This document shows positions 5,805 through 61,488 of a DNA stretch of 64,000 nt, one piece after another. The DNA is from Hemileia vastatrix (lineage: Eukaryota; Basidiomycota; Pucciniomycetes; Pucciniales; Zaghouaniaceae). Positions within the stretch are counted from its first letter, which is position 1. Each line of letters begins with the position of its first letter. Position numbers and translations under genes: made by a program. The stretch is taken from NCBI GenBank assembly GCA_030280995.1, contig JASXTE010000002.1:9996683-10060682 (forward strand), read 5' to 3'. The notes below the pieces were generated by a model, which was given only the letters and a program-made list of their open reading frames with translations, was not told the origin of the DNA and did no database searches.

Positions 5805-5813
5805 TCTATAAAT
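5805..5813 (+). promoter_or_regulatory. TATA box of antisense gene A2
   Basis: The sequence TATAAATAG at about 5805-5813 is a near-consensus TATA box lying about 40 bp upstream of the A2 start codon (5853). This supports an independent promoter inside the retrotransposon, on the strand opposite to gag-pol. Confidence 0.5.
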
Positions 5814-5852
5814 AGCCTGTCTAATAGCCCAGATTACCTTCATCCAAACATC

Positions 5853-7340: not shown

Positions 7341-7366
7341 CTTTTGATCTGATCTGCCGCCACATG

Positions 7367-8392: not shown

Positions 8393-8518
8393 TTTCCTAG
8401 TTTGGACAACTAACTGAGGAAAAAAAGCTTGATCCTTCCATAACTTCCCATTTTTAATAAAATAGCCTTTAGTGCACTTTTCAATTTTGTGATAAACCTT
8501 TTTATCACAAAACTCTGG

Positions 8519-8906: not shown

Positions 8907-8922
8907 CAATAACCTATCCTGT

Positions 8923-10475: not shown

Positions 10476-11630
10476 ATTCAGGTGGAAACTTTGTTAAAGG
10501 AGTATCATAAGGATTTGTAGACAGCTCCGGCCTCTGGAAAGGAGGATTCAAATCCGGCATTGGTACATTTACTGGTTTAACCTTGACAGCCACTGTTTTA
10601 TACTTAGATGCTAAACAGCGCTTGCTGCTCCCTTCATTACTTAAAATCAAACCCTTTCTAATATAACCATGGGTTACACCTAAATCCTGTTTTTGTCTTT
10701 TCTTTTTAATATAAGTATAACAAAATCCATAATCAAAGAAATCAAAAAGCTTAGGTACAATACATTCTACTGTAGTATTCCCAAGACACCTATGAAGTAC
10801 CGCTTTATGTATCCCTTCTTGTTGGACTGACTGGTTACTATCTGGGTTCCTCTCATCCTGGGAGATAGTAAAACCTAAAATGCCAGTCCCTAATGAAAAT
10901 ATTGGCACCTTCCTGGCGGTTTCCCTATCTCATAATCTGAGACTTCCTCATAAAACTCTCTTTCTTTCTCTAATCGCACAGCTCCAGAGTACTTAGTTTC
11001 CCAGCCACCATCCTTGGGAGCTACTAAGACTGCTTTTACTTGAATACCATCATCACCCATAATCCTTATTCCAATAGTCTTATTTAAACAATAATTGATA
11101 GTTGCAGAATAATCCATTTGAAATGGCATGCCTAAAACTGGTTTAACTACACCCATTGGAACATAAAAATGTATATCCCTCGTTGCTCCCGCAACTCTAG
11201 TGCGTACATACTCTGCTACACCTATAACAGGCAGCCTACCTCCACCGATTCCTGAAACAGTACCCTCACCATCTTTAACAGGAAGACCTAACTCCACAGA
11301 ATCATCTACTGACACCATTTTGATTTGCAAACCTGTATCCACTAACACTCTAATTTGCTTACTTTTTACAGTAATTTTTAAATACCCTAAGGGTCCTGAA
11401 TAATGTGGTGCCCTAGGTAATCCAATGACTGGCTGAAATGAATGCTCTCCAACATCAAACTCAGCGCAATTAGAAACCCTTTGCTTCCTGCACTTATCCA
11501 CAATTCCATTGGCTACATCCGGCGCTACTGCTGTCAGCACCCCCAATGGAACAGAATCTGTAGTCTTCAAAAATTGTGTAACTAAATCCTCAGCTGCCTT
11601 AGGAAAATCAGAGTGGACCAGGAGCTGCAT
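10476..11630 (-). pseudogene. Element A aspartic protease and protease-RT linker
   Basis: The minus-strand frame 11630-10890 contains a retropepsin active site (VLVDTGLQIKMVS; D-T-G is the catalytic triplet) and a downstream ILGMPF-like flap end (VLGMPFQMDYSA). The following frame (10908-10476) is the linker to RT, rich in basic and Pro residues. Retropepsins cleave the Gag-Pol polyprotein. Frame changes at about 11,600 and 10,900 separate it from gag and RT. Confidence 0.8.
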
Positions 11631-13197
11631 CTTCCATTTAGGTTGAGTCGCCTTTGCACCAGCCTTCGCTCTTCCAGGTGTATTCTTTGGAGTATTGCTC
11701 TTTGTTCCTGGAATTCTTCAGCAGTTACCGCTCTTTGCTGTACTATCTCTGACCCCTCCATCATCATTGTTTGATCTTCTACCTGATGATCCACACCATA
11801 ACCAACTGGTTCCATACCATCCATTTCAACATCTTCAATAGGCGCAGGTGTATTTTCTTTAGTAGTATACCCTACTTCCTCCATATCCTCTGTATTTGCA
11901 TACCTAGCGCCAGCTCTTCTCAGCCTACTGATTGTAGGTGGGGCCATTTTCTTGTGCTTTGCTGCAAACATCTCCAAACGCGCTGCAGTAAGTGGCGCTG
12001 AAACCGCTCCTTATTTTACTTTAAAATCCAACACTGCGCAAGTAACTGCAAAATTGACTGACTTTGCATTCTTGTCTTTTCCTTTAGCTTCAGGCTCCTT
12101 GCCCTTGATCAACCTTCCCTCCATAGACTTTTTATTAATATGATCAATGACCATGGCTCACATCCCTCGATCCTTATCTTTGACAAGCTTAGTCCCATCT
12201 TCCAACATAAGCGTAGTTCCATCCTTGTAAACTGCCCTTTCCTCTTTATCCTTTTGAAGCACATTACACCTCATCCTAGTATGTCCCTCCTTATTACAAT
12301 AGTAACATACCATAGTAGAAAAATGCAATGTTTGAGGAGAACTCTTGGGCCTAAACAATTCTTTTACCTTTTTCACTTCATTCATTTTCTTCTCCAACTC
12401 AGAAATCCTTGCCATAACTGAATCTGGCTCCTTAGTGAATACTTTAACTTCAGGAGACAACATCTGAGGAGGCGATTGCACACCAGACGCATCTTCTTCA
12501 ATCTCCTCGTTATCCAAAGCAACTCTAGCTGTGCGACACTCAACTCGGTGCAACTTCATTTCTGCTTCCACTGCCATTTCTACTTCTTCTAATCCAGGGT
12601 ACTTATAATTACTGTCCCTCTTCTTGACTAGCTTTCCTTCGTTATCCAAGCGCCTCTTCACCCAGTCTTCAACTTCTGGTGCTAGTGCTTCACAAAACCA
12701 AGGTAAAGACGCATTAGTATCACTAAAATCTTCGTTACTGACTAAATTTTCTACTATTCAATCAAAATCTTCTCTAAAACTTTTAAATTCCCTAGGGTCT
12801 CAAACACCCCCTTTAGCTTTGACCCTCTTTACCAAGACATTCAGATCCTTTATTGTATACTTAGTTTCCTTGGTTACCTTCGTCCATCTCTTGAGCATCT
12901 GTTCTTTTAGCGCTGACAAATTGCGCTCTTCATGCCCCTTTAAATCCTCTAAATCTTATTTGCACTCATTAGAGACAAAGAAAGCACTTGACGCACCATA
13001 TCATACTTGGTCGCTCCATGCACTTCAGCCGCTTGCTCAAACCTTTGTAAGAACTTCTTGGTATTAATACCCACAAATTGCAAACTTTCATCTTTACATC
13101 TAATTATTGTAGTTACCCTCTGTGGCAATGATGCCGTTGAATTAGGCATTTTAACCTTCTCCTGACATCCCTTAGATGTAGTCGCAGTAGGATCCAT
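11582..13197 (-). pseudogene. Element A Gag with CCHC zinc knuckle
   Basis: The start at 13197 (MDPTATTSKG) lies about 230 bp inside the 5' LTR. Capsid-like sequence follows, including WFCEALAPEVEDWVKRRL, which rejoins across stops at about 12,948, 12,790 and 12,750. A CCHC zinc knuckle lies near 12,310 (C-YY-C-NKEG-H-TRMR-C), and then an acidic/Met-rich tail to 11582. Gag packages the element RNA. A minimum of five stops or frameshifts interrupts it. Confidence 0.8.
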
Positions 13198-13424
13198 TTC
13201 AAAAATATGAAATAGAAACAGAGATCACAAAACAAATAAACACACACTTGGTAATCAAACCCTACTATATTCACAATACAGCCCTAAGCTATCCTCTGAT
13301 AACAGCTATTGATCCACTTGTTGAAGACCCTACAACTCTTCCGCTGAAGCACCCGCTTGATCACGTCCTCTTGACATAACCCTGAAAACCAAACAATCTA
13401 ATCAAAACACTAGTTACAATGAAG

Positions 13425-13442
13425 CCACTTTTGGGACACCAA
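13425..13442 (-). promoter_or_regulatory. Element A primer-binding site
   Basis: On the minus strand, two bases after the LTR end (CTCTACA), the sequence TGGTGTCCCAAAAGTGG begins with TGG. That is the complement of a tRNA CCA tail, the normal start point of minus-strand DNA synthesis. The tRNA species was not identified. Confidence 0.65.
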
Positions 13443-13443
13443 T

Positions 13444-14697
13444 TGTAGAGAGTTCTAAAGTACTTAGCAGTAGAAACAATGCGAGATGGGTTGGTTCTTC
13501 TTTTCATTTTCTAAAAAGAAGTGCCTTCCACTCTTATTTTTAAAGACAGTGCAATAACGTGTAACACTAATATGTGATTAGAAAGTTTATAAGTTGAGAA
13601 ATGAGTTTTTTTAAAAATAACAAGTATTACTATTTGGATATTTCTATTTTTAACAATTGCTAATATTCACAGCTACTCCCACTTGAAGAGCTCTCTTTGA
13701 GTATGCCTTATTATAGCAATAAAATAACTCTAATACTAATCAATCCTACTGAATCTATATATTCTCTCTATGTTGCAATCTTTCACTTATACTATAAGAA
13801 ATACACACACAGACGCATGAATGACAAAAAGACTCAGAAAAATCTCTAATATATTCTCAATCAAATGATTGCAGAAAATCTAATATCTTATACTTTACTT
13901 CACAATTATTAACTATTTGCTTGTTAACTAATTATTTGTCAATTGTTCTCCCCCCTTTATTACTAGATGTGATACCCCTTTTTATATTTTTCCAGCACTC
14001 AAAACACAGTTCCCTAGTGGATCTCCAGCGCTAACTCTAGCGCCACATTAGTAAAACAATAACCAATCAATTATTAAACTACTTACACCACTTGTAACAA
14101 CTACAGAACCTGAACACACCCTATGCTTACTAACACTAGTATTAACTTGTTTCACTCATACTCCACATGCGCGCTCCTGACTGTACCTTTGTTTTTTTTC
14201 AGCACTACTTCCAATTTTTGACTCCTTCTAACGCTGATCTTAGTTGCCTTGACTCTTGGGTAGCTTTGTGATTGAGTCCCTGCTCTCCTTACTTCATTAC
14301 TAAGTCCATAGTTCTGACAACTCACTTAACTAGTTAACCTCCTACATTACCTGTTTCAGTAAGCTACCATACTTGCGGCGGTGCAGTATACTATGCACTT
14401 GAGTCCTTCCTTAATGTGTAACACACGATTATTGGAAAATCCAAATCTATATTGTTCAGTGCTTGCAGTCTTAAATTGATAACACACAATTCCCCATTGT
14501 GTGGCGCATCCTGCTGCAAAATCCGAGCACACAGACCCTAAATCTTCTTCCACACTTCTATTTCCCTTTTTTATTGAAACAAACAAATATGTATTATAGT
14601 TTAGCACTACCCACTGCACTATGAATCCCCTTTGTTCTTCCTGCACTATGCAAGCTGATTGGTCCAAGATCAAACTGCCTGAGAGATGGGTACCACA
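13444..14697 (-). repeat. Element A 5' LTR
   Basis: Direct repeat of 2976-4228 (1254 against 1253 bp). An apparent reading frame that begins in element C at 14727 and runs into this LTR is a chance fusion and not a gene. Confidence 0.9.
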
Positions 14698-19471: not shown

Positions 19472-21645
19472 TTATTGTATGAGAGTTTGTCCAGTGGTAA
19501 CATCTGCACCCAGTTGTCTTAATGATAGTTAATTAAATGGCGCAAATATTTTTTGATTGAATTATTCACTATCTCAGATTGCCCATCAGTCTGTGGATGT
19601 AATGCTGATAATAGGATGGGCTTAATTTTCAGTTGCTCATACATTATTTTTCACAGCTTAGAGTTAAAAGTATTTCCCCTATCTGATACTATACATTCAG
19701 GAAATCCATGTAATTTTCAGACATGTGCCACCATTAAGTCTGCAATACCCTCTGATGTAGCCCTAGTAGTGGTGGGGATGGATTGTGCCATCTTGGTGCA
19801 GCATTCAAATACAGTGAGGATATCATTCTTTCCTTGAGACTTGGATAATTCCACAATAAGATCATAGGAGAGCTCCTTCTATGGCTGTTTGGAAATTTTT
19901 AGTGGTGTCAGTGGTGCTGTTGTTGGACTAGCCTTGTTTCTCTGGAAATATTCACACACTGAAACATAGTGCAGGAAATATGCTTTCATGGGCTTCCAGT
20001 AAAAGTTATGGTTCACCAACCCCACAGTCTTCAGAGGACCTGGATTTCCTGCCATTTGGGAATTATGCCTTGATTTGACCACCTGCCACTTGAGCTCCGC
20101 ATCATTTGGAACCACTATCCTTCCATTCCAACAAAGTGCTCCCCTTTCCAGGTGATACTCATCCAATCCCTACCTTACCAATACCTCTTTTTATAACAGT
20201 ACCTTCACCAGCTCCTTCACTCCCTCATCTTTTTCATGCCCCCTTTTTACCCATTCCATCAAATCCTCATCTTCCAATTCCACTTTGTCTAAGATTACCC
20301 CCTCTTCAAGGTCCCCCTTCAACAACATTTCCCCAAAAATGTTTAGTTGGCCTGGTTCTGGGTGCAAGTCAGGGAATCGTGATAGTGCATCAGGTTTTCC
20401 ACTTTTATTTTCAAGTAAAAATGTAACAGCAAAGTTAATGATACTTTGCAGTTCTGCCCAGGGAGCCTTCAGGCAAGTCAGATTTTTAGTGGTCAGATAG
20501 GTTTTCAGGTTTTTATAATCTGAGTAAATAATAAATTGTAACCTATGAGGCCCTCTTTCCATATAATGGCACCAGGTATGTACCACTTCTACTAGTTCCA
20601 ATAACTCCTTATCATATATTTCATAGTTTTATTCAGCTCCTTGCAGTGCTTGTGACAAATGAGCTATTGGGTGCAAGACATTTTCAGCATTTTATTGAGA
20701 TAATACTGCACCTAGTGAAAAATCTGAGCCGTCACATTCCAGAACAAATGGCTTTAATAAGCCAGGGACTGCAAGAATAGGGACTGTCACATATTGTATT
20801 TTCAGGTTGTCAAATGCATCCTGTTGACTACTTGTTGAGATAAATATGGCTTCCTTCTTTTTTGGGGTCATACAAGTAATTTTCAATAAAACAGCTATAG
20901 AAATTTTTAAAGCCTAGGAATGACTGGAGCTCTTTCACTGATGCTGGTGTTGACCATTCTGTTACTGCCTTTACGTTCTCCTGGTCCATTTTCACCTTTT
21001 TTTTTTGAATTGATAATACCCAAGTAGGGGATTTCACTCACTGAGAAGACACATATCTCTGTTTTGAAACGTACCTGGGCTTCCCTCAAGCGCTTCAAAC
21101 AGTCCTTTACATGTATCTGATGTTCTTCCATTGATCTGGATTAAATCAAGTTGTTTTCCAGGTATATCACTACATCTATCCCTATTCTGTCTCTGAAGAT
21201 GCTTTTGGTGAAGTGTTAAAAAGTGGAAGGCACATTAAATGGACCATATAGCATTACAAACCATTCAAAATGACCAAACTAAATGCAGAATGCCAGTTTG
21301 TGTTCATCTCCTTCTTTTACACATATGTTGTGGTAACCTTCCCTAAGATCTATAGATTTAAAGATTTCTGAGCCTTGAAGACTATCAATTAGCCCACTAG
21401 TCAATGGAAGGGGATATCTGTTTTTTACCATCAGCTCATTTAACCTTCTGAAATCCATGCAAGGTCTTAGTGAACCATCCTTTTTTCCTGAAAAGATAAC
21501 ATGGGCAGCCTAGGGAGATTTGGATTCCCTAATGAAACCATTCTTTAAATTTTCATCAATCATCTCTTTTAGTGCTGTTGAATCTAGGGTTCATAATGGG
21601 ATTATGTGGCTAAATTGAGGGTTTGCACCTGGCATCAGATCAATG
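19472..21645 (-). pseudogene. Element C RT, RNase H and integrase core
   Basis: Minus strand, reading leftward from the edge of element B. The RT N-terminus comes first (IDLMPGANPQFSHIIPLS, then FKSIDLREGYHNI), then the YxDD position reading YLEN at about 21,165. The RT thumb follows ([19 protein letters not shown]), then RNase H (VLECDGSDFSLGAVLSQ), the RNase H end (GKPDALSRFPD) and the integrase HHCC and core (IVSDRGNTFNSKL, ALHPQTDGQSEIVNN). The order is the standard Ty3/gypsy one. In-frame stops occur every few hundred bases and the RT active site is lost, so it cannot act. Confidence 0.85.
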
Positions 21646-22436
21646 TGTCATGCACCACGTGACACTTGAGGCAAAAGAAGCTCAATAAATCAATAATACA
21701 GAGGTCTAAATCCATACTCAAAGCACAGAAAACAATTCTACATAGCAACTGCGACTTTCCTTTGTGTACTCACTATTCAACCGCGCTAGTCTAAACTTTA
21801 AATCTAAATTAGTCAATCTATTAATAGTGTGTTTAGTCTTTTCTTCGACAAGTGACACACAGCACAATATTTAATGTAATATTCCGCTAAAAGGTTTATT
21901 AAGTATCTGTTGGTTATTAACAGGGGTAATGAGCATGGACGGGATGGTTAGTGGAGGATTAAAGGGTTAACGGATGTTAGTGAGGAGGGTCCAGGTGTAA
22001 CGGGTGTATTTTTGTAGGTCTGTGGAGTGCAGAATGATGGATGGGTATGAGGTAAATGCGAGGAGGGGTTGGATTGTGGTTTGATATTTCTTTAGAATTA
22101 AATTATAAAAACGTATATATAGTTAATAGTGGTAAAGCTTCAGGTTAAATCATTATTATTGTACATTTCCTTATTTTTCTCTGTAATCATTTCTAAAACT
22201 TAAATCTTTGATTATTGAGTTTCCAACCCTTTTTTAGATCTTAAGAATATTAATATTACCTTTAGAATATATTAGAATTCTTATCAAAAATATCTTGAAT
22301 CAGTAGCTCTTCCTTCGAGTCATCTTAGAATCACTTCCTCGAACATTTCCTCTGTGCTTCAAAGAAGTTTCTAAACTACTCTCTTCATCTCACTTCCAGG
22401 AACACCCTTGACCTTGTGGGTAGGTTGTCCGGTGCA
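21646..22436 (+). repeat. Element B 5' LTR
   Basis: It aligns base for base with 28563-29354 except for scattered changes. Many are C/T or G/A differences at positions that are CG in one copy, for instance CCGCGCTAG against CCACACTAG and TTCGACAAG against TTTGATAAG. That is the pattern left by cytosine deamination at CpG. Confidence 0.92.
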
Positions 22437-22511
22437 GTATAATTTAATTCTCTGTAGTTCTCATTCTTTGCACTACTACGTCCTTGTTCACATGTCTCTA
22501 AATTTTTTAAA

Positions 22512-23120
22512 ATGGCACCTGTTCAACGCACTCCTCCTACAGGCCCTACTACTAGGGCTTGCGCTAGAGGCAGGCCAACAGCCACACGGCCTGTTTACCG
22601 CACTCACTCCCTGGAACCTCTTGAACTTCAGAGCACTTCAAACTCGAGTAGGTTGGAATGATGCTTCCCTCAAGTATCATTTCAAAAAGGGACTTCCTTC
22701 AAGGATTCTGGATCAATTAAATCTTCATGGTCAGAAGATGACTACTTTAACGGATTTAATGGATCGAACCCTCTAACTCGATGGCATTTATCAAGGACGA
22801 CTACAACATTGTCAATATACCAACAAATCTCAAGGCCTAAATTTTAAATCGGGAACTTCTTCACACCCACGGACAACTCAATCCTCCTATACTCAATCCA
22901 AACCCAATAAGGGAAAGGACAAACCTTGACCAAAAAGCTCAACCCCAGGCAATATCAGTAAGGTACTGGATCCCAAAGGGGAACTTAAAGAAGCTGAGAG
23001 GAAGAGACTAGCAGATAATGAGTTATGTATGTATTGTGGGGGTAAGCACAAGCTAGAAGATTGTGTAAATTTAAAGGAAAGAGAAGGTACTAGTTTAAGG
23101 TCAAAAAACTATTAGATAGT
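22512..23120 (+). pseudogene. Element B Gag, internally deleted
   Basis: ATG 22512 opens an N-terminal segment (MAPVQRTPPTGPTTRACARG) that ends after about 50 codons. The next recognisable gag sequence, in another frame, is the capsid C-terminus (WNDASLKYHFKKGL, SRILDQL) from about 22,650. A zinc knuckle follows (C-MY-C-GGK-H-KLED-C, about 23,030). The bulk of the capsid, normally a couple of hundred residues, is missing between these. It cannot build particles. Confidence 0.8.
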
Positions 23121-23214
23121 TTACTTGTGTTCAAAACAAACTATCTTATCACTCCCAGTGCACAAAACCTCCATGTCTTAAGGACTGGAGTTGCCTTAAA
23201 CCATTTGAGATTCA

Positions 23215-23895
23215 TTATTTTTAAGGAGGATATCCCTTCAGTTGTCTTATAGACTCTGGGGCTTCAATTTCTTCTGTCAGTTTATCGTTTTCTGAGAAGT
23301 TAAAGCTGAAATTCACAGATATCAATCGAACTCCAATTTATTTGGTTGAATCAGAGGAACCCAAATATTGGGTAAAGAACAAGTTTTATGGGTTTTCAAC
23401 TTTCCAAATTTTTCCCCTTTCGAGTGGGAATTATCAGTCTTTGACACCCCAAGAATGGACAATACCATTCTTGGCCATGACTTTTTAACACATAGGAGTC
23501 CTGAAATTGATTGGTCACGGGGATTGATCACCCCATGCGCTAAGTATATTTCTGATTCGTCAATGCAGGTCAATAGGGAGTTAAACAGCCTGCCTAAAAA
23601 TATCCTGCTAGAGGACAAATCTCTGCCATATGACTTGCAAGCATCTGATCTTTCTCTAAATGAGAAATTGGCTAACCCTTCTAGCTCGATGACTTCACTC
23701 GAAGAGGATTTAAATTGCCTCGAAGTAGTCAAATTATGCTCTCTCCATTCTGGTCTTCCCTCGACGGATTCTCTCGAAGATGATGAGGACGACCAAATCA
23801 ACGTTGAAGCCATTAAATCAACTCTACCAGGAATCTATCATGATTTCCTCGATGTTTTCTCAATCCTCAAGGCCAATATATTACCACCTCATTGA
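23215..23895 (+). pseudogene. Element B aspartic protease region
   Basis: The retropepsin motif D-S-G-A is read in CLIDSGASISSVSLSF at about 23,236-23,284. After a frameshift near 23,365 the protease continues with DNTILGHDFLTHR (ILGHDF is the conserved end of the fold) and an acidic linker (SLEDDEDDQINVE) into RT. The frame stops at 23,893 (TGA in PPH*PYDH; the family has Arg there). Confidence 0.8.
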
Positions 23896-25317
23896 CCCTA
23901 CGACCATCAAATAGAGTTAATAGGTCCAGTACCTCTGGCAGGTCCTGTCTATTCTTTATCGAAGGACGAATCTCAAGTTCTTTGAGACTACATTGCAGAG
24001 AATGTAGCCAAAGTTTTCACCAGAGCCAGTAAATCTCCAACCGGATCCCCTGTTCTTTTTGTAAAGAAAAAAGACGGTAGCCTTATGTTGTGTGTTGACT
24101 ATAGAAATCTCAACAGAGTTACAAAGAATAATTCATATCCAGTTCCTCCTATCTCATTGCTTCTTACCCTTTTTAATGGTGCTAATTTCTTTTCTAAAAT
24201 TGATCTTAGAGGCGCTTATAATCTTATTCGCATTTCGGAAGGTCATGAACCACTGACTACAATGTGCACTAGATTCGGAAGTTTTGAATATTTAGTAATG
24301 CCTTTTGGATTATGTAACGCACCATCTACTTTTCAAACTTTTGTTAATGACATCTTTCACGATGTTGTCAAAAAATTTGTTGTCGTCTACTTAGATGATA
24401 TTTTAATTTTCTTGAAGACACTGGATGAACATATTCATCATGTTTGACAGGTTCTAAATTGCCTTCGAGATCATGGTCTCTATGACAAGCACAATAAATG
24501 TGAATTCCATCTTAAATCTATTGATTTTTTGGGGTTTACATTGTCCACTGATGGTTTAGTCATGGACGACAAAAAGGTCCAAAAAATCCTGGAATGGCCT
24601 GAGCCCAAAACTGTTAAATCCCTCCAAGGATTTTTGGGTTTTGCCAATTTCTATAGAAGATTTATTAAAGATTACTCTAAAACTATTTCCAATATTACTT
24701 CTCTTCTTAGAAAAGATATTCCTTTTGTTTTTACTTCTACAGCACAAAAGGAATTCAAAGCATTGAAGACTGCGTTTACCACAGCTCCAATTCTTTGACA
24801 CTTTGATCCTTCTGCTTCGACAATAGTCAAGACAGACGCTAGCAATTATGCTATCACAGGGGTCATTTCTCAATTCAATCCTGAAACAAAATAGTTTCAT
24901 CCTGTTGCTTTTGAGTCATGCAAACTCATTGCGGCAGAATTAAATTATGAAATTCATGACAAGGAGCTTTTAGCTATTATTCATTGTCTTAAAGAATGGT
25001 GCTCTTTTCTTCTCAGCCTAGATAGTCCTTTTCAAATCCTGACTGACCATAATGCTTTAAAATAATTTATGTCTTCCAAAGTGTTAACCAGGTGTCAAGC
25101 CAGGTGGGCTAAATTTTTGTCTGAATTTCCTTTTTCTATTTCCTATCGCCCAGGTAAGAACTGCATTGTCCCAGATATCCTGTCACGTCGGGAAAACGTT
25201 TACCCACAGCGGGGGGACACATTTTCTGACAAGAACCCAGAAAATGTGAAATCAATTTTCAACGAATCAATGTTAACGACTCATCAACTTAATTTGATGA
25301 CAATTCAATCTTTTTAA
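23896..25317 (+). pseudogene. Element B reverse transcriptase and RNase H
   Basis: The RT palm carries SPVLFVKKKDGSL, FFSKIDLRGAYNLI and the catalytic YLDD (VVYLDDILIF, about 24,390). The thumb and connection (GFLGFANFYRRFIKDYS) and RNase H ([37 protein letters not shown]) follow, ending DILSRRENVYP. In-frame stops fall at 24,445 (TGA), 24,796 (TGA), 24,891 (TAG) and 25,062 (TAA). The catalytic residues themselves are preserved, so the stops are the main damage. Confidence 0.88.
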
Positions 25318-26757
25318 AATCCACTATCCAACATCCTCGAAGTTCAGTCGAAGGACAATTATTGTTTAGGGATAAAAGACAAAATACTCTCAAAGCAAGG
25401 GGCCAAAAGATTTAGTATTGAATCAGGTCTATTAGTTTTCGAAGGTAGAGTAGTCATACCCAACAATAATGAAATAAAATTATGGATTTTCAATAGTCGA
25501 CATGATTCTCCATTAGCTGGTCATTTTGGGGTTGATAAAACCTACCAGTTAATAGCAAGGGATTTCTTCTGGCTAGGAATGACCAGAGAAATCAAGGCCT
25601 ATATAAGATCTTGTTACAAATGTAATAGGAATAAGGCTCCCTGTCACTAGAAGCATGGGTTGCTACAACCACTTCCTATTCCCTCTAAACCTTGGGAATC
25701 TTTATCAATGGATTTTATTTCTCAACTTCTGCTTTCTAATAATTTTGATGCTATATTAGTAATAGTAGATAGATTTTCAAAAATTTCTATTTTCATTAAA
25801 ACCACTACCACTGCTACAGCAGAAGATTTGTCAAAATTGTTTCTAGAATATGTATTTTCCAAACATGGCTTACCTAATGATATTATTTCAAATAGAGGCT
25901 CATTGTTTGTATCCACATTCTGGACTCAATTTTGTCGACAACTCAATATCACGAGGAATCTCTCCACGGCCTATCATCCTGAAACCATTGGGCAAACGCA
26001 AAGGGTCAACCAAATCCTCAAACAATACCTTTTAATGTATGTCAGTTACCAACAAGACGATTGGACCACATGGTTACCATTGGCCGAATTCACTTATAAT
26101 AACTTGACTCATTCTTTGACACGACAATCTCTTTTGGAAACTGTTTATGGAAAACATCCTTGATTCAACTCAATCCATGTAAGAACTAGTCATCCTGCGG
26201 AACATTATCTTCCAACCATATCACGACTCCAAGAAGAATTTAAATCACACTTGGAATTAGCAATTCAAAGGTACAAGGAACAGGCCAACAAACATCAACA
26301 ATCTGCTCCTTCCTTTAAACCAGGCAACAAAGTATGGCTCGATGCACGAAACATTCAAACAACTCGACCATCAAAGAAACTGGCCAAAAGGTGCTTGGGA
26401 CCATTTGAAATTGACTCCGAAGTCTCTAAAACTGCATTTCGACTCAAACTACCTCCTAAATGGAAGGCTATTCACCCTGTTTTTCACATATCTCTCCTGG
26501 AACTGGCTCGAGAAACATACCTGGGAAGGAACCAACCTCCTCCAGAACCGGTTGAAGTAGAAGACCATCTAGAGTGGGAAGTAAGCCCTATCCTTGATTC
26601 AAGAATGCGCAAGGGGGAACTTCAATACCTCGTGGAATTGGAAGGCTTCCTCAATGACTCAGACAAAACATCCTGGGAACCAGCCATCAATTTTTCTAAC
26701 GCCCCTGAACTACTAAAATCTTTTCATCTTAAATATCCTTTTAAATCAAAACCTTAG
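25318..26757 (+). pseudogene. Element B integrase and chromodomain
   Basis: The zinc finger (HDSPLAGHFGVDKTYQL, then C-YK-C) and core follow the chromovirus plan. However, the second catalytic Asp is Asn (SNRGSLFVS where SDRG is usual) and the Glu is Gln (GQTQRVN where GQTERVN is usual). The C-terminal barrel (GNKVWLDARNI, KRCLGPFEI, HPVFHISLLE) and a chromodomain (LEWEVSPILDSRM, LQYLVELEGF, SWEPAINFSNA) complete it. Stops are at 25,648 and 26,161. Chromodomains in this clade direct insertion towards marked chromatin. Confidence 0.88.
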
Positions 26758-27527
26758 AACTCTCTTATATTTTTCTCTTCTCTTCTCTTTTTTTTCTCTT
26801 TTCTCTTCTTTTCTTAAAATTCCAAAACTTCTACTCTTCAAAAAATCCTTACTCTTTTTTCTCTTTTTCTTTCTTCTTTTCAAAAGCTTTTTCAACCTTT
26901 TTTAAAAAAATAAATAATTAAATTAAATTAAATTAAATTAAATTAAATTAAAAATATTAAAATTAAAATCTTAAAATTCATTAAAATAAAATCTTAAAAA
27001 ATCAATAATTCCTTTAGTTTTTTTTCTTTTCTCCTTTCAAAATTTTTTTTCCGTTTCCCTTATTTCTTTTTCTTCAAACCATCAAATTTTTTCACGAACT
27101 CAATATGACAATCTTTCTCAAACTTCACTTCAACCTTTAATCTTTCTTTTAAAATTCTTCAAAAAAATTACTTCTTTCATTCAAATTCTTTTTTCAAAAC
27201 TATATTTTTTTTTCTTCTTTCTTTTCAAATAACCAAAATTCCTCAAAAACTTCAATAAATAAACTTTCACAAATAACAAATTCTTCTCTCATTAAATTTT
27301 CATTTCAAAAGAAATTGTTTCAATCAACTATTTTTTTCTTTTTCAAACTTAAACTAAAATTTCCTCAAATATTCTTTTTTTTTCTTTTTTCCTTTTTCTT
27401 TTTCTTTTTCAAAATCTTATAAAATATATATTAAAATTTCAATTAAAACAACAAAATAAAATAAATACACAAATTGCTTTCTATTTTTTCCTTTTTCCTT
27501 CCTTTCTTTTTTTTCTCTCTTTCCATT
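26758..27527. other. Pyrimidine-rich spacer of element B
   Basis: Almost pure T/C with A-rich interruptions and no coding potential. It contains a simple repeat of TTAAA units at about 26,915-26,955. It separates gag-pol from the convergent antisense gene. Confidence 0.6.
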
Positions 27528-28464
27528 TCAAATTTTCTCCTGTATTTTTTCCCAAACCAATTTCTTCATTTTTTCCAAAACCACCCTTATTTCCTTCCTG
27601 CATTTCTCAAATACCTCCTCCTCTCCTACCGGTACCACTTCTCCAATCTCCAGTAATTCTTCTTCCACATTGAAGGAGGCGACATCAACTATCTTGTCGA
27701 TCTCATCACTTAAATTTTCAATGAATTGAGCTCATCAACCCTGCCGAGGTTTCTTTGACCATACCTGGTCAAGGGTTTCCTCGTTATCCTCCCTCGAATT
27801 GACCGCTAGTTGACTTGCCTCAATTGGCAGTGATGGCGCAGCTTCCACAATTGGAGCTTCTGCGATTACATCTGAATTCTAAAAACATACGGTCATCAGT
27901 AACAAAATTTTTGAAATAAAAAAAAAGCAGACTTACTTTGAAAAATGTGTCAGCCTATAAAAATAACTTCGGGGTGACCTCCACTGTCACTTCCTTCTCC
28001 TCTTCATCATCTTTGATGACCATCTGCCACGTCTTCGGTGTCCGCCTTGAGATGGGGACTTCATCCTCATCCTCTTCCACCCCTTGTCTTTTACCTGTGG
28101 CCTGGGTTACCCAGGCTTCCACAGTATCCTTGACCTCCTCCTCAACCTCTTCCACCAACCGATCATCCCCGACCAACACGTCCCAGATGTCTTTGACCGC
28201 CTCTTTGGTCTTTGGGATTACCCAGTATTTATTTTTGGTAAACTGTTGTTTGATGTCCGCATTTTTTGATAGGGCATCACACGTCACCCATCTCCAGCGG
28301 CAAAACTTGCATTTCTGGCGAGGACCTCGTGTAGCCGTGCTTTTGACGCAAAAATATTCCATCAATTTGCAGGTCGTGCAGGCTTGGAAGTATTGCCAGG
28401 TAATGATTCCACCATCTGCTTTGGGGTGTGGAGGCGTGGGAGTTGGGGTAGGACAAGTCGACAT
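27528..28464 (-). pseudogene. Antisense accessory gene of element B, Zn2Cys6-like protein
   Basis: Minus-strand gene between pol and the 3' LTR. Exon 1 is 28464-27937, the intron 27936-27879 (GTAAGT..TTTTTAG, 58 nt) and exon 2 27878-27528, giving 293 codons. Cysteines 29, 32, 39, 52, 55 and 62 follow C-X2-C-X6-C-X12-C-X2-C-X6-C exactly, the spacing of GAL4-type Zn2Cys6 clusters. The rest is acidic with a charged helix at the end (EKCRKEIRVVLEKMKKLV). Three in-frame stops (TAG 27955; TGA TGA 27732-27737) show decay, but the frame before, between and after them stays open through the intron. A TATA box lies 85 bp upstream. DNA-binding or regulatory function is inferred only from the cysteine pattern; no homologue was recognised. 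Confidence 0.68.
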
Positions 28465-28547
28465 AATAAATAGAAAATAATTAAAAAAAAGAGTTGAGAG
28501 AAAGTAGTGTGGGAAGAATATGTCTCACACTCAATGGAGCTTGTGTT

Positions 28548-28555
28548 TTATACCC
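28548..28555 (-). promoter_or_regulatory. TATA box of the element B antisense gene
   Basis: Read on the minus strand, CCCGGGTATAAAACAC places TATAAAA about 85 bp before ATG 28464 and only 8 bp from the inner edge of the 3' LTR. The position suits a promoter firing back into the element. Confidence 0.6.
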
Positions 28556-28562
28556 GGGCATC

Positions 28563-29354
28563 TGTCACACACCACGTGACACTCAAGGCAAAAGCAGCTC
28601 ATTAAATCAATAATACAGAGGTCTAAATCCATACTTGAAGTGCAGAAAACAATTCTACATAGCAACTGCGACTTTCCTTTGTGTACTCACTATTCAACCA
28701 CACTAGTCTAAACTTTAAATCTAAATTAGTCAATCTATCAATAGTGTGTTTAGTCTTTTCTTTGATAAGCAACACACAGCGCAATAGTTAATGTAATATT
28801 CAACTAAAAGGTTTATTAAGAATCTGTGGGTTATTAACAGGGGTAGTGAGCATGGACGGGATGGTTAGTGGAGGATTAAAGGGTTAACGTATGTTAGTGG
28901 GGAGGGTCCAGGTGTAACGGGTGTATTCTTTTAGGTCTGTGGAGTGTGGAATGATGGATGGGTATGAGTTCAATTCAAGGAGGGGTTGGATTGTGGTTCA
29001 ATATTTCTTTAGAATTTAATTATAAAAACGTATATAAAGTTAATAGTGGTAAAGCTTCAGGTTAAATCATTATTATTGTACACTTCCTAAATTTTCTCAG
29101 TAATCATTTCTAAAACTTAAATCTTTGATTATTGAGTTTCCAACCCTTTGTGAGATCTTAAGAATATTAATATTACCTTTAAAATATATTAGAATTCTTA
29201 TCAAACATATCTTGAAGCAGTAGCTCTTCCTTCAAGTCATCTTCAAATCACTTCCTCAAACATTTCCTCTGTGCTTGGAAGAAGTTTCTAAACTACTCTC
29301 TTCATCTCACTTCCAGGAACACCCTTGACCTTGTGCGTAGCTCATCCGGTGACA
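28563..29354 (+). repeat. Element B 3' LTR
   Basis: 792 bp, TGTCAC to GTGACA, followed by CAATG (29355-29359). It is more CpG-depleted than the 5' copy over much of its length. Confidence 0.92.
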
Positions 29355-30330
29355 CAATGGCAAAGTCTTACAGTCAATGAGGTGGTAGGGTCTTAACTTC
29401 TCCCTGTCCAAACAGTGGTAAAAATTACCAATAAGCTTCAGGTACCATTTCCTTGAGGCTTTTTGTTGGCTTTGAGAACTGGACCTTGGCTGAAATATTG
29501 GGGGATATGTTCAAAGCTGTTGTGTCACATTCCAGTTCCTCCTCTTCTTCCAGTGCCCCCTCCAAGTCCTAAAACTTAGCATCAAGAGAAAGTGTCAGTT
29601 CTTGCAGCAAGTCTACTGATGATAATGAAACACCAGGTGACTGACTGGGAAGGTCCCCTGACCCCTGAAGACACCAGGGAACAAATTTTTTCTTTGCACC
29701 ATCCATCTTTTCATCTTCTGCCATCCCTTTCCTTTTTTGAACCTTCTCCTCTTCTTGGTGCACTTTACCCCCTTTCTGCTCCTCCCCAGTGCTTCCTGTT
29801 GGCACCCCATCCCTAGCCTGCTGCTTAAAATCAAAAGGAAGAATCAGTTCTGGTGGCAAGTCAACTGATGATAACAAAACATCAGATGACTCTCCAGGAT
29901 GGGCCCCTAACCCCTGAGGGGGCCAGGGGGCCAATACTTTAGCACCAGAATCCCCATTCCTTCCCATCTGAACCTTCTTTTCCTTCCAATCAATTTTCTG
30001 GTTATATCAGTGCAGCCATGTCATCCCCAGTGCCATGTTGTACTAGTCCTTCAGGTTTGTCACATATTCACTGCACTTCAACTCACTTCCAGCACACCAA
30101 AACCTGCAATAAACCTTCTCTCTTACTTCTTCACCCCCACATGGGGATCCATCAAACATAATTAGATGCCTAGGGTGGTCCAATTTTTCTTTTTTCTTTT
30201 TATTTCTCTATAAAAACTTGTTATAAATCAAAAAGTCTGTGGCCCCACAGTCCAGTAGGGCTTGTACATTTGTTGTGGCCTCAAGGTTCATTAAAGGAAA
30301 ACTTAGTATAATTCAATTATCATTTACTTC
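29355..30330 (-). pseudogene. Element C protease and protease-RT linker
   Basis: The minus strand shows a retropepsin-like start (TTNVQALLDCGATDFLIYNKF; D-C-G where D-S-G or D-T-G is usual) near 30,270-30,220. A protease body follows (YNMALGMTWLH), then a Lys/Glu-rich linker with the repeated phrase LSSVDLPPELILPFD / LSSVDLLQELTLSLD (29,880 and 29,620). It leads into the RT N-terminus, which is interrupted by element B. Several stops. Confidence 0.75.
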
Positions 30331-34067: not shown

Positions 34068-34500
34068 AAAAATGCTTAAGCTTGACAGAAATTTTCATCT
34101 CTGCAACGAACTAAATTTGCAACTATTTTTTTACTTTAAATAAACTTCTTTCTTTTTCTACCCTTGCTGTTAGTAAGTTGAAGTTTATTTTCATTCTCAT
34201 TCACATATTTTCTCCGCAGAAAGTGCGTGATCTTCTACAAGCACATTGGAAATCCAATCATCAAGGGGAAGATATGGTCGCGCATTAAACTAAGACAGAA
34301 AAAAAAGGCAAATGAGACGCTGATTTCCACTTTTGATAGATTAACTAGCATTCTGGTGAATGGTGTGTATTTTCGCATATTCGGGTCTGGCGAGCGAGTT
34401 GGTTGTGGAGAATATTGCATATGCAAGTTGCCTCCGCCGCTGTCACTTCCATTCGCGTTCAATTTTTTGTCCGCCTCGGCCTGAAATTCCCTGGCCGGCC

Positions 34501-34508
34501 TTATAAAG
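34501..34508 (+). promoter_or_regulatory. TATA box of the Dicer-like gene
   Basis: TTATAAAG sits inside the palindrome GGCCTTATAAAGGCC, 60-67 bp upstream of ATG 34568. The short GC-rich tract around it stands out from the AT-rich surroundings. Confidence 0.5.
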
Positions 34509-34567
34509 GCCTTTCAAGCCACTCATTCAACAATCTTTTCCCATTCCGCTTTTACAGTTTAAAAGCT

Positions 34568-37500
34568 ATGGAAATTCCATCCTCACCAGAATCTCAAAAG
34601 AATGAAGTCATCTGTCTTTCCTCATCTCCCATTCCTCCACAAGAACCAATCATCATCTCTGATGATGATGATGACACTGATCATTTAACTGTATCAGGCA
34701 GTGATATCCCTTGTCACCCATTTTCACTTGTTCCTCGTCTCTACCAACAAGAAATAATTGATCAAGCCAAGACTCGTAATATCATTGTCCGATCTGACAC
34801 TGGAACTGGAAAAACTTTAGTTGCTATTCAGCTGATGCAATGGATTGCTTCTCAATCTCTTCAAGCAGTTGAAGGCCAAGAGTCTATCAAGAAAATTCAA
34901 GTCTTTCTTACTATTACTAGGCCTTTGGCTATTCAGCAAGTTGAAGCCATTAAAAAGTCAACCTCATTGGTTGTTCGTGCTTATACTGGTGATTTGAGAC
35001 CGGAATTTTCCAAGATTGAAAGATGGACTGAAGAATTGAAAGATGTTGATGTCATAGTGTGCACCGCTCAGGTCAGTAATACATCCACCCATCTATCCAA
35101 ATTCTTTTCACTTTACCCTGTGATAGATTTTGATGATTATTGAAATTAAACCTTGTTTCTTCTCATTTTGACACAGATTTTCTTGGACATCCTCAGCAAA
35201 GGATTTTGGAGCTTGAATAAGGTGTGTCAAACACTCGTTACTATATCCGGCGTGTATGGATAAACTTATGTTGTGCAATTGGAAAAAGGTTTCACTTCTT
35301 GTCTTCGATGAAGCTCATCATTGCCGGAAAAGTCATGTGTATCGCAAGATTATGTAAGACTCATTTTTTACTACCCTGGTTCACTTCTATTTTGGTCACT
35401 AAATGTCTGTGGTCACTCACATCCCTGTGGCAAATCTTACAGGCAAGTCCATTATCATCGGCTGGCTGCAGATCCGGCAATTAGTCTTCCTAAAATCTTA
35501 GGTTTGACGGCTTCTCCCCTTTGGGACTTCCGAGATTCTCGAAAAGCCAAGAAGGACATCAGGTTGGTATATTATCATGAAAAGTGGATGTATAAATTTA
35601 GACTCAAGCTCTTCACCTTATCCCAATTTTATATCTGCCATTCAACTTTTCAGGAGTCTACAGAACGATCTTGCCTCGCAAGTATATGAAGTTCGAGAAA
35701 ACCGAGAAAACTTAGAAACCTATACCCATGAACCGAAAGAAAGAACTATCTATTACGATCTCTGTGGTCCACAATCACCATCTTCGCTCGACATGATTCC
35801 TTGGGATGAGATACAGCAATTCCTGGATATGCAAACTGAATCTGCTTCTAAATTTTTAATCAGTATGGAATCAGCAGAAATAGTTGAGTTTATTTAGTCA
35901 TTAATGTGTTTGTTGCTATTTTTCTATATCCACCTTGAATGTTTATGACGATTTTACCTCCACCATGCAGGAAATTGGTATATACGGAAAACTGCAATAC
36001 CTATCAGACTGGATCACTTCACTTCTAGATTCTTCTCTTGATCAAGATTATCTTCACGTAGATCAAGAAGATTTTCGTGGCTCGTTACGGTGCTTGCGAA
36101 CAAAGCTGGAAGTGGTGTTGACCCAAAACTCTATTACATCAATGCTTTCTCCCAAAGTTATCGCTCTCATTGATTATTTGCTGGAACATTCAAACATGAA
36201 AAGTCCCAGATTTCATGCCATATTGTTTATTGAGCTGAAAAGGAATGCTCAAATTCTGAAGAAGATACTTGATCAGGTTGAGGAGCTCAAGCCCTTTGTG
36301 AAGTCAGCCGTTCTGATGGGTCATTGTAGCAAATCCAAGGCCAGTGGTGGATGTGGAATGAAGCCACGCATGGTGAGTCACTTGGCCTAGTAATTGCTTG
36401 CAATTTGGTTCAAATCTCTATACAGTAAATTAATTCATTATCAACATAGCAAAATCAAATCATTGAAAAATTTAAGAGTGGAGACATTAATATGATTATT
36501 TCTACCAGTGTTGCAGAGTATGTGCTATAGCTTATTAGTAATTGTTTATTGATTTTATTTTCTAATCAAATTGCTAATCACTTAGAGAAGGGCTTGATCT
36601 TCGCGAATGTAATGTAGTTATTCGATTTAATGACACGTTAAACTGGAAAGCGTCAGTGATTATCATAAAAAATTCATTGATTTCTCATCCTTAAAGCTGG
36701 CTTGACTTCACTTTTTTATTTTTTGCTTTTAATAGCTATATTCAATCTCGCGGACGCGCTCGCGCTAAAAATGCAGACTTTATTGTCTTTGCCGAGAAAG
36801 ATGGTCCCAGCAAATATGAACATTTTGCTAACAAGGAGTCGGTCTTAAGTTTTTTTATTTTTATAACACTCATTTGGAAATTTAATTATTTTTTTCTTGG
36901 GAAACCATGGTTTGCTCAATGGACTATTGTTGCACCCGAACAGAAGTGATGTTGCGACCTCACTTTATCTTGATCCACCTCAGATTGATGCGAAAGGCGA
37001 GGCTGAAGTCACCCCTCAATTGATATGTACCCTTCCAAACGGTCATTCGTCCATCTTGACCTACGGTGCCGCCTTGTCAATTATTAATGAGCTTTGCCAA
37101 TTATTACCAAAACCAGAAGATTCTCAATCTTCTCCACCTGCGTACTATGTCAAAAATACTAACGCGGGATATGTTGCTGAACTTACCCTCCCAACTTTTC
37201 AAGGATTGCCTGCTAGCGAGCGAATCTTTTCGGGAGAGGCGAAACCGAATAAGAAAGAGGCCATGAGGGATGCTGCATTCAAGGCTTGTGTTGCCCTTTA
37301 TGAAGCAAGTGTTTTAAACGCACACTTTCTTCCAGTGAAACCAGCTAAAACAAACGAAGCGATTGATGCTAATGGCAGAAAATTGGACAACCTCGCTCTC
37401 CCCGATAAAGTCGAAGTATGTTGCCCGAATCCATTTGGACAACTCGAAGATTCACCATTGCTACATCTGCACAAGCTTTCTTTCGATATTGGCGAATCTG

Positions 37501-40117
37501 AATCATGTTCAATCGGTTTCATATGTCAAAAGAAGCTAAGCTTGCCAGATGGACTCTACCTTTGGGATCATATTCAGGAAGGGAAAACTTTGCCCATTTG
37601 TATAGATGATATTATTGAGCTTCAGTGGACACCAGAGGAATCAGAAGATAACATCTCGCGGTTAACTAAGTTTACTTTGTTTGGGATTCAAGCAGCCGTT
37701 ACTCGGACAAATTATAGTGGAAAGTTACTATTTTTACTCGCCCCTTTAGCCGCAAATTCAATGGAAATTGATTGGAATTTGGTTGAAAACCACAAAACGA
37801 CGATCACGAGTGCTAAAGAAGCGCTTCAAGCACCTTATATTATTGCTCCCTTGAGGCCTTTACATTACCGGATCCTGAAGGCAACTTCATCTCTGGATCT
37901 CACTCATGAATCAGATCCACAGCAAGTTCCAAAAGACTCTTGTAGCTCTAAATTTATTACTAGAATATCAAGATTTAAAACTTTGGGTCATTTCATGGTT
38001 GTGGTTTTCGAAATAGCACATGAGAAGTGTCAATTTCCTATGGTGTATGTACAGTCCGCTTTACCGGTTCACAATAACTTGTCGAAAGTACCTACAGTCC
38101 AGAAAGAACGATCATTTCGGTTCTTGGTGCCCATATCAGTTTGTTTCACCAGTCCAGCTCCATTTTCAACATGGAGACTTTTTTCCTTCATACCCGCTTT
38201 CACAAGACGAATGTACGATTCATTGCAGGCTGTCTCAGTTTTAACGCAACTAGAAGCACAGGAAGTTCCAATCCCGTTAGCCGTGGAGGCCCTTACTCAA
38301 CCTGGTGTTGGCGTTGAATGGGATTATCAAACATTAGAAACCGTTGGTGACGCATTTCTTAAACTTGCTACTTCAGTTCATTTGTATGCATCTCAACCCA
38401 ATAAAGGCGAAGGTGACTTAAGTGCCTTGAGATCCCGATCAGTTGATAATATATATCTAAGAACGAAATCATATACTGCTGGCTTAGGAGGTTACGTGTT
38501 AAGTCAGCGCTATCGAACTGATCGATTTAGGGCTGCACATGAAGAAGATGCGAAACTTTTAGATTCTGGCGAATCACAACGAAAGATACCAAGAAGAGTT
38601 TTATCAGACGTAGTTGAAGCTTTGCTCGGGGCAGGCTATGTATCTGGCGGGGTACCGACTGCTTTAAAAATAGGCACTTCACTCGACCTTTGCTTTGGCG
38701 GCACAACTCATTGGACTGAGCGCGTTCATGATCTTCCTCAAAATTTTGATGATAAGTCTCAACCTGGCCTCACTCCAGCATTAATTGAATTGCAATATAA
38801 GATTGGGTACCAATTTCAGAATCCAGCTTTGTTGCTTCAAGCGTTGACTCATAGAAGCGTCAGCTCTTGTGTGACCAAATGTTATGAAAGAGAGGAATGG
38901 CTCGGCGATGCCGTCCTAGACTTGTGGATCACAGATAAAGTTTATCGAAGATACGAGGGATCAACCGCCAATCAGCTAACCCTAACAAGAGCTTGTTTAG
39001 TCACCAACGGCAGCATTGGCTTTCTTGCCATCCGCAAATTGCAATTACATCTAATTGTTCTGCACAATTCTCCAGAAGTGACAGAAGCATACAAAAAAGC
39101 TATCAGTGAAATTGAGCAATATCCCGACATCCCCAGTTTTTTTCATGATCTTACCAATGTCTTTACTGCTTTTGATCCGCCCAAGATATTGGGAGATGTG
39201 TTAGAAGCAATTGTAGGTGCCATATTTGTAGATTCTGGATTTAAATTAGAGACGGCATTTCAAGCGCTTGATTTCATTTATGAAGACGTTTTGCCCTGCA
39301 TTACTCGCTGCGAACCTATGGATCCCTTTTCCAGCCTTTTGCAAATAAAAGATAAATACCAATGCACTAGCTTAGAAAAGAAATGGCATGTTATTTCAGG
39401 TTTTCTTTTTTTTATATAATTTTTTTTTCTTCAGGAAAAAAAAACTTTCCTTAAATAAAAGAGGGATTTTCCAACAAGCTGAGTGATACTAAAGATAAAA
39501 TTTAGGCTGAATTTTGACAAAATTTTATTTTTGATTTGAACAGTGAGGTTGTCACAGCAGAAGCGTCCAATGAAAGCAACGGGTTAAGCGAGAATACTTT
39601 CAGGCGGTGTATCTTTACTTTTCATGATCAAGTTATTGGCCAAAGTCAGCACCCTACCTCAGCAGCTTTAGCAGAACAAAGAGCCGCCAAAGAAGCCATA
39701 ACTTTTCTCGAGGCGGTTGAGGCTACTCAATCTCAGGATGTTGCCAACCGTCTAGGAAACTTATGTGATTGTATCCAAATAGTGAAGCAAAGAGCCATCA
39801 TTGTAGACAAGGACGACGTAGGTGAAAGTCAACATGAAAGTCAACAGAAGGATACGGTAAATGTTTGTCCTTCCTTATCTAAGTCTAAAACCTCTGCAAA
39901 AAAAGCTAAAAAATCGAAACGAAAAGCGCTCGAATTAGACATCGGCGAAAGTAAGGATGCAAGTAATCAAGACTGTGAATTGCAAGAGTCAGGATATCCT
40001 GCAAAAAGACAAACATTAGATCCTCAATGTATTATTTCGGAAGTAAAGAATAAGATCATCGTCATTGAGAATGAAGTTATCGTTATTGATAGTGACGCGG
40101 AAACTGACCTCGATTGA
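34568..40117 (+). CDS. Dicer-like ribonuclease III
   Basis: RNAi endonuclease that cuts dsRNA into small RNAs. The inferred exons are 34568-35071, 35177-35221, 35289-35353, 35443-35562, 35654-35882, 35971-36372, 36450-36517, 36586-36651, 36736-36837, 36944-39399 and 39558-40117, all GT..AG and in phase, giving 1,538 aa. Domains in order: DExD/H helicase (GTGKT 79-83, DEAH 190-193, LTASP 226-230); helicase C (TSVAEEGLD from 474, QSRGRAR 503-509); Dicer dimerisation domain (about 555-650); RNase IIIa (E999, D1003, D1089, E1092); RNase IIIb (E1185, D1189, D1285, E1288); weak dsRNA-binding segment (about 1360-1412); Lys-rich stretch (about 1465-1478). All eight RNase III acidic residues are present. 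I recognise no PAZ domain. No internal stop was found. The last intron boundary is ambiguous (donor 39390 with acceptor 39547 also keeps the frame). ATG 34568 was chosen because it follows the TATA box. Confidence 0.93.
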
Positions 40118-52424: not shown

Positions 52425-52427
52425 TTT

Positions 52428-61487: not shown

Positions 61488-61488
61488 T

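Follow-up and report, generated by a model that had tools for sequence, protein, structure and literature searches.

A gene that runs opposite to pol, with its own TATA box, an intron and six regularly spaced cysteine codons, is carried by a family of Ty3/gypsy retrotransposons in the rust fungus Hemileia vastatrix. We found it in a 64,000-nucleotide stretch of DNA (termed the window), which lies inside a 748-Mb assembly, on a 56-Mb contig. The window contains a complete insertion of the element at 21646-29354, with two long terminal repeats (LTRs) and a 5-bp target duplication, CAATG. The gene is located on the minus strand, between the end of pol (26757) and the 3' LTR (28563). Comparison of genomic copies shows that the gene, the TATA-containing strip at the LTR edge, the intron and the reading frame are conserved, and that the gene travels inside the element. 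Selection has kept this gene, and so the element, which is present in many copies, probably carries a nuclear regulator of its own.

The antisense gene is conserved inside the element

The first-pass annotation of the window had described a minus-strand gene with a TATA box, a 58-nt intron and a six-cysteine spacing between pol and the 3' LTR, all of which were confirmed (Table 1). The window copy itself is decayed, with a stop in exon 1 (27955-27957) and two adjacent stops in exon 2 (27732-27737). A similar six-cysteine pattern is found once in the window but in none of 60 window shuffles and none of 2000 shuffles of the region, and a looser pattern has no second match in the six frames of the window. 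A plus-strand open reading frame (ORF; 27920-28480) overlaps the exon 1 stretch. It is best read as a by-product, because it shares its third codon positions with the antisense gene.

A search of the genome with the exon 1 protein yielded 6717 first-look candidates, of which the best 150 are 74-100% identical to it. From these we read 50 copies: the best matches (L001-L030) and a further twenty with a stop-free match (L031-L050); L027 is a duplicate of L026. Of the 50 copies, 49 (all but L028) have the 3' LTR edge 76-114 bp upstream of the ATG, on the opposite strand, and 46 have TATA[AT]A at -85 to -102. Moreover, pol is found downstream on the other strand in 42 copies, that is in 23 of the 30 with a 1.5-kb flank and in 19 of the 20 with a long flank. 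Two copies, L032 and L043, have a short repeated VEAP-like expansion that opens exon 2 and are perhaps a further sub-lineage.

Copies were also picked by pol. A genome search with a C-terminal pol piece gave 24235 candidates, and among the best 150 at least 14 chromovirus copies are listed whose open frame around pol measures exactly 1221 residues, with a stop-free match. Thus, the family has probably moved recently. We took 12 of these 14 copies, reading only the stretch beyond pol; the copies sampled in both ways are a small part of all copies. The antisense gene is found at the same site in all 12, and so the claim of an element-borne gene, which the loss of the ORF from other family members would have undone, stands. 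Eleven copies have a recognised 55-nt intron and a 183-codon exon 1; the twelfth (L054) is disrupted, with a partial exon 1, a donor and a branch-like site and no near acceptor. Six of the 12 stay open as far as a common C-terminus, five with 298 residues and one with 292. Of the others, one ends 8 residues early, one has an exon 2 stop and three (L053, L057 and L058) have exon 1 stops and were hence not tallied as open. TATAAA is present upstream in 10 of the 12 copies. The sets of pol-picked copies analysed below comprise 11 of the 12 for exon 1 and 9 of the 12 for exon 2.

By its signals, the intron is of the spliceosomal type and conserved across copies. When 30 copies were aligned without a splice-site filter, the donor GTAAGT was found in 27, the exact branch-like sequence TTACTGATGA in 26 and the final TAG in all 30. 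The intron lengths of these copies take all remainders modulo 3 (11, 7 and 12 copies), while donor, branch-like site and acceptor are kept; across the copies read, the intron measures 53-75 nt. Exon 2 joins the exon 1 frame only if the intron is taken out. A pattern-based tally recognised the intron in 56 of 62 copies, missing five among the first 50 and one among the 12 picked by pol. The pattern demanded a branch-like site and a TTTAG-like end, and the counts of signals obtained with it (51, 52 and 56 of 56) are therefore partly built in. Inspected by eye, exon 2 still follows an intron-like stretch in the unrecognised copies L032, L040 and L043, and L035 and L036 have lost the gene downstream. 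The exact spliced junction of the antisense gene was not found genome-wide with a zero-mismatch pattern, which could miss decayed or variant spliced copies. The sole genome match to this pattern (L051) is a different sequence and was discarded.

From its substitution pattern, the coding part of the gene is under clear purifying selection. The exon 1 set consists of 39 of the 50 copies (741 pairs), after five copies with an unrecognised intron, five with frameshifts and the duplicate were left out; the exon 2 set consists of the 9 of 50 copies that have an in-frame end. For exon 1, the proportion of differences is 0.105 at non-silent sites (pN) and 0.345 at silent sites (pS), and the ratio of non-silent to silent substitution rates (dN/dS) is 0.245 (0.19-0.29 in 60 codon bootstraps). 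The control frames give 0.94 and 0.86 on the gene strand and 0.92, 0.36 and 1.02 on the opposite strand. The value of 0.36 belongs to the one frame that shares the gene's third positions, whereas frames that do not share them range from 0.86 to 1.02. Selection on the opposite-strand ORF was therefore rejected, since its ratio is explained by the shared third positions and lies above that of the gene. CpG decay was also rejected as the source of the low exon 1 ratio, because masking CpG columns lowers it, in a second counting from 0.26 to 0.18 (exon 2, from 0.31 to 0.29). Thus, the earlier suggestion that the open frame was once under selection is borne out by the contrast between the frame of the gene and the out-of-frame controls.

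Variants private to one copy behave differently from shared ones. With CpG columns masked, the private exon 1 variants comprise 49 silent, 124 non-silent and 7 stop-making changes (ratio 0.61) and the variants found in two copies have a ratio of 0.60, whereas those found in at least three copies comprise 49 silent, 31 non-silent and 0 stop-making changes (ratio 0.15). The corresponding unmasked ratios are 0.78, 0.75 and 0.29, with three shared stop variants. Of 14 stop-making variants in exon 1, 10 are private; with CpG masked, all 7 are. This argues that decay after insertion was nearer to neutral and that the source lineages were constrained. Two integrase pieces, compared in 19 copies, have pairwise dN/dS values of 0.535 and 0.472; their masked ratios are 0.70 and 0.72 for private variants versus 0.49 and 0.17 for shared ones, of which there are few. 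By eye, the gene tree and the LTR tree form broadly matching groups.

Silent divergence between subfamilies

Between the pol-picked copies and those resembling the window copy (termed window-like), silent sites of the gene are close to saturation, judged from pairwise differences, which does not hold for pol and the LTR edge. In exon 1 (11 pol-picked by 39 window-like copies) pN is 0.174 and pS 0.767, all divergence figures given here being inflated by post-insertion decay of older copies; the wrong frames of the same comparison give a pN of 0.31-0.33 and a pS of 0.22-0.26. When 5 pol-picked copies are compared with 15 window-like copies that have pol, the pS of exon 1 is 0.764, and the C-terminal pol piece of the same 5 copies has a pS of 0.201 against 19 window-like copies. 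For exon 2 the pS between subfamilies is 0.62 (9 by 9 copies). The subfamilies differ by 0.33 in the intron, 0.48 in the lower 5' untranslated region, 0.155 at the LTR start and 0.087 at the TATA junction. Inside each subfamily the gene also exceeds pol, though by less: within the pol-picked group, the pS of the gene is 0.072 (11 copies) versus 0.043 for pol (5 copies), and within the window-like group it is 0.34 (39 copies) versus 0.145 (19 copies). The exon 1 protein of 14 window-like copies is 64-75% identical to that of one pol-picked copy. Thus, the silent divergence of the gene lies far above that of pol and LTR while its protein is conserved, which makes the gene an island of silent divergence.

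A tentative and rather doubtful explanation is that the gene is a module whose silent sites are far older than the element. Intact regulator cassettes might have been traded among element lineages, by analogy with phages, which swap repressors. Alternatively, silent divergence itself might be favoured, since small RNAs derived from the antisense strand would otherwise cross-silence sister lineages. The module might perhaps encode a half-swapped Zn2Cys6 domain.

The six-cysteine protein and its possible roles

The six-cysteine motif is complete in all 11 pol-picked copies analysed and in 26 of the 39 window-like copies. The sequence PKKRR, which we liken to a nuclear import signal, is present in 9 of the 11 and intact in 5 of the 39. 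Fungal zinc clusters of the Zn2Cys6 type (PF00172) are spaced C-X2-C-X6-C-X5-12-C-X2-C-X6-8-C, and the antisense protein has this spacing in common with the GAL4-type members. In Zn2Cys6 domains, basic residues that contact DNA are expected between the second and third cysteines (C2 and C3). However, the C2-C3 segment of the rust protein is mostly KSMEYF or ESMEYF, and its basic stretch (RWRRV in undecayed copies) lies between C5 and C6, in the second half of the cluster and not in the first. The C4-C6 half can read C-x2-C-R-x-R-R-x-x-C-D. In Pfam scans of the whole exon 1 of 14 copies, Zn_clus was absent at E <= 1, and two pol-picked copies gave 9.8 and 9.9 bits (E 1.2 and 1.1). Among pieces confined to the cluster, those of 6 out of 13 copies matched Zn_clus, with a best E of 0.043, as did 4 of 5 from pol-picked copies (E 0.020-0.053), and isolated half-motifs of 26-27 residues had no match in 10 Pfam scans. 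Searches of Pfam and NCBIfam with the whole of exon 1 gave weak matches only, which were taken as chance.

Our preferred reading, held with moderate confidence, is that this accessory antisense gene of a chromovirus encodes a nuclear regulator that would bind element DNA and set the balance between sense and antisense expression. A regulator role of the protein is likely, and its binding to DNA we infer. Driven by the TATA box that adjoins the LTR, transcription would run leftward and be followed by splicing. The product, of about 298 residues, would have a six-cysteine zinc cluster, the PKKRR motif, an acidic middle and a charged C-terminus. It would return to the nucleus and bind the LTR and the edge of its own promoter, and the outcome would be a balance of sense genomic RNA and antisense mRNA, resembling that of HBZ in human T-cell leukaemia virus 1 (HTLV-1). 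A possible operator is the 19-bp inverted repeat at the first bases of the LTR. Allowing up to 3 mismatches, it has two matches in the window, both of them LTR starts with 1 mismatch each, and at least two matches also occur in 12 of 100 shuffles. A loose form of the repeat is present in 41 of the 50 and in 11 of the 12 copies. The first-pass annotation, which had proposed a DNA-binding regulator expressed from a promoter beside the 3' LTR, holds for the selected gene, the conserved intron and the TATA box, but a DNA-binding nature of the Zn2Cys6 type is not established.

Several observations weigh against a DNA-binding regulator. The inverted repeat may merely be the end used by integrase. 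The copies L001-L030 were chosen by their likeness to the gene, and L031-L050 also for the absence of stops. For exon 2 the dN/dS is 0.29 (9 copies), but its control frames are noisy, with values of 0.55 and 1.12 for the gene strand and of 0.48, 0.39 and 1.22 for the opposite one, and its private variants, those in two copies and those in more give masked ratios of 0.39, 0.32 and 0.30 in these 9 copies, without a clear contrast. The best Zn_clus score, obtained with a cluster-only piece, is 15.4 bits and lies under the curated cut-off of 21. In the best stretches of seven copies the C4-C6 residues align with profile positions 3-16, the first half, and in those of two copies the C1-C3 residues align with positions 19-37, the second half, only the best stretch per match being visible. 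The alignments thus suggest a swapped order, a permuted domain or chance similarity of short cysteine motifs. Furthermore, no relative was found in 5.8 billion proteins, either with the window copy (E <= 1) or with a profile of 14 copies (E <= 10). Profile searches of the PDB gave weak matches only (best E 1.3 and 0.18), a solved GAL4-type member not being among the hits, and two structure models are of low confidence (mean predicted local distance difference test scores, pLDDT, of 31.4 and 30.9). Because the Zn_clus score is below the cut-off and the matches cover halves, we do not file the protein as a Zn2Cys6 member and call it zinc-cluster-like. Of the GAL4-type zinc cluster proposed in the first-pass annotation, the exact spacing remains, whereas membership in the family is not established.

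Roles other than regulation were also weighed. The protein might act in the nucleus as an accessory to integration, to the import of the pre-integration complex or to the choice of chromatin, which we regard as unlikely though by no means negligible: the gene is kept by selection inside the element and encodes the PKKRR motif, and such roles are discussed for plant antisense ORFs in a passage of PMC7264820. However, the element already has an integrase with a chromodomain, and the gene, with a TATA box and an intron of its own, would be expressed apart from gag-pol, which would fit regulation better than a part of the particle. A small cysteine-rich domain combined with a basic stretch could also bind RNA, serving, for instance, to chaperone or export the unspliced genomic RNA, and the retrotransposon Cer1 reportedly has an export helper (PMC10309623). 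We consider this improbable, since a CCHC-like motif is already present in Gag (23026-23064, read by eye). Moreover, the six-cysteine spacing fits binuclear clusters and not knuckles. It is more improbable still that the antisense transcript itself is what matters, pairing with genomic RNA, feeding Dicer and limiting copy number. There would be complementarity between the antisense mRNA and the 3' portion of the genomic RNA, and a Dicer-like gene exists in the same genome (34.3-40.1 kb of the window), but selection acts on amino acids, stop variants of exon 1 are mostly private, and the splice signals are kept while the intron length drifts.

Two further explanations concern the origin of the gene. 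That a host gene was captured once by one element lineage and has been a passenger since is very improbable, even though the intron and the promoter are as in a cellular gene and the direction is opposite to pol: the gene occurs, under selection, in each of the 12 pol-picked copies and in subfamilies that have diverged widely, and no cellular relative was found in the searched protein set. A recent passenger was rejected, since the intact, recently moved copies sampled retain the gene under selection; an ancient capture of a host gene would still be compatible with these data. For a chance open frame or an annotation artefact one could cite that 1 of 1000 dinucleotide shuffles of the region yields an ATG frame as long (at least 169 codons) and that the opposite strand is open too along this stretch. 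Nevertheless, we give it next to no credence, and a chance ORF was ruled out by the dN/dS with its frame controls and by the conservation of the splice signals and the TATA box.

Host element, neighbouring features and known systems

Table 1. Features of the element and of its antisense gene in the window.
Feature	Position	Strand	Remarks
5' LTR	21646..22436	+	791 bp; aligned to 3' LTR, one gap
3' LTR	28563..29354	+	792 bp; aligned to 5' LTR
Target-site duplication CAATG, left	21641..21645	+	
Target-site duplication CAATG, right	29355..29359	+	
Primer-binding site	22438..22451	+	exact 14-nt complement of LTR 22094-22107
pol reverse transcriptase, stop-broken	23986..24798	+	Pfam RVT_1 E 3.9e-32
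pol integrase, SH3-like domain and chromodomain, stop-broken	25651..26757	+	Pfam rve 5.2e-09, SH3_Tf2-1 3.5e-17, Chromo 1.7e-08
Antisense gene, exon 1	27937-28464	-	ATG at 28464
Antisense gene, intron	27879-27936	-	58 nt, phase 0, GT..AG; donor GTAAGT, branch-like TTACTGATGA, end TTTTTAG
Antisense gene, exon 2	27528-27878	-	end stop 27528-27530
Six-cysteine motif	28279-28380	-	C-X2-C-X6-C-X12-C-X2-C-X6-C exactly
TATA box TATAAAA	28546-28552	-	82-88 bp upstream of ATG; begins 10 bp from LTR edge
19-bp inverted repeat	28563..28581	.	7-bp arms and 5-bp spacer; first LTR bases, facing antisense TATA box

Of 791 sites aligned between the two LTRs, 57 differ (7.2%). At several dinucleotides one has TG where the other has CA, and the CpG observed/expected ratio of the window is 0.31, which points to CpG decay and suggests methylated repeats. 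When the flanks are joined without the element, an open stretch, DFAIDLMPGANPQFSHIIPL, spans the junction, with stops on both sides; we take it to be pol of another Ty3-type element. The 14-nt complement between LTR and primer-binding site was reached by none of 500 LTR shuffles. Such a self-priming complement presumably marks a Tf1/sushi-type chromovirus, and the element has both this complement and a chromodomain after the integrase. By eye, no purine tract directly abuts the 3' LTR in 28480-28562; the conserved antisense TATA strip occupies the position expected for the polypurine tract, and one strip may serve reverse transcription and the antisense promoter alike. Viral contigs searched with the antisense gene and with the integrase gave no confirmed match.

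Other features of the window lie outside the element. A Dicer-like gene is located at 34349-40117, about 5 kb from it; the one 850-codon ORF of this gene that was searched is 44-47% identical to relatives from Puccinia and Phakopsora and 49% to another, in keeping with a rust host. A plasmid collection searched with a Dicer piece gave no match. An LTR element on the minus strand (2976-14695) has LTRs of about 1250 bp that are 93% alike, and about 3.5 kb with several opposite-strand ORFs between its integrase ORF and its 3' LTR. A younger Ty3-type element, also on the minus strand (49204-58045), has LTRs of 1180 bp that are 98.3% alike and about 0.1 kb from the last pol ORF to the 3' LTR. Neither of these two elements has a significant match to the antisense gene. 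Finally, a long imperfect inverted repeat at 58787-62294, with arms of about 800 bp that are 80% alike, is possibly a DNA transposon or a fold-back element.

PMC7264820 lists ORFs in antisense orientation between pol and the 3' LTR for maize Grande, rice RIRE2, Silene Retand, bean PvRetro13 and Botrytis Boty and states that their role is not known. Like those termed aORF-3R, the rust gene is placed between pol and 3' LTR and runs against gag-pol, and in the copies sampled it is mostly present and conserved like gag-pol, its exon 1 dN/dS (0.245) lying below those of the two integrase pieces (0.535 and 0.472). The antisense gene of Boty is called brtn in passages of PMC8365987 and PMC4227169. 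By its description Boty is a chromodomain Ty3/gypsy element of the ascomycete Botrytis cinerea, whereas the present gene belongs to an element of a rust and has both an intron and a six-cysteine cluster. Gene23 of Grande is described in PMC7264820 as encoding a nuclear protein and having its own promoter, and for TRP28, the product of the Retand antisense ORF, a portion of PMC11963269 gives DNA binding as probable. TRP28 is a different domain, with no match in the rust antisense protein, and the main text of that paper does not contain the word intron (0 occurrences), whereas the rust gene has one. In HTLV-1 and HTLV-2, spliced antisense transcripts from the 3' LTR encode the nuclear proteins HBZ and APH-2, respectively; HBZ is made from both spliced and unspliced RNA and lowers the virus's own expression (sections of PMC10186651). 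These are, however, bZIP or other animal-retrovirus proteins, whereas in the rust element the TATA box is found just within the internal region, and the role of the rust gene is predicted. In the titles and abstract openings of open-licence papers among the matches listed, a set with subscription papers mostly outside it, no antisense gene of a fungal LTR element was found that bears an intron or encodes a zinc cluster. Antisense genes at this site were already known as a kind; the intron, the zinc-cluster-like motif and the rust host set the present one apart.

A high-copy family with open, selected and intron-bearing copies makes the function of antisense ORFs testable, by stranded RNA sequencing, because the intron marks the antisense mRNA unambiguously. 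If the protein acts on its own LTR, it would be a fungal parallel to HBZ. Moreover, the deep silent divergence of the gene would, if true, bear on how retrotransposons evade mutual regulation or silencing in the very large genomes of rust fungi.
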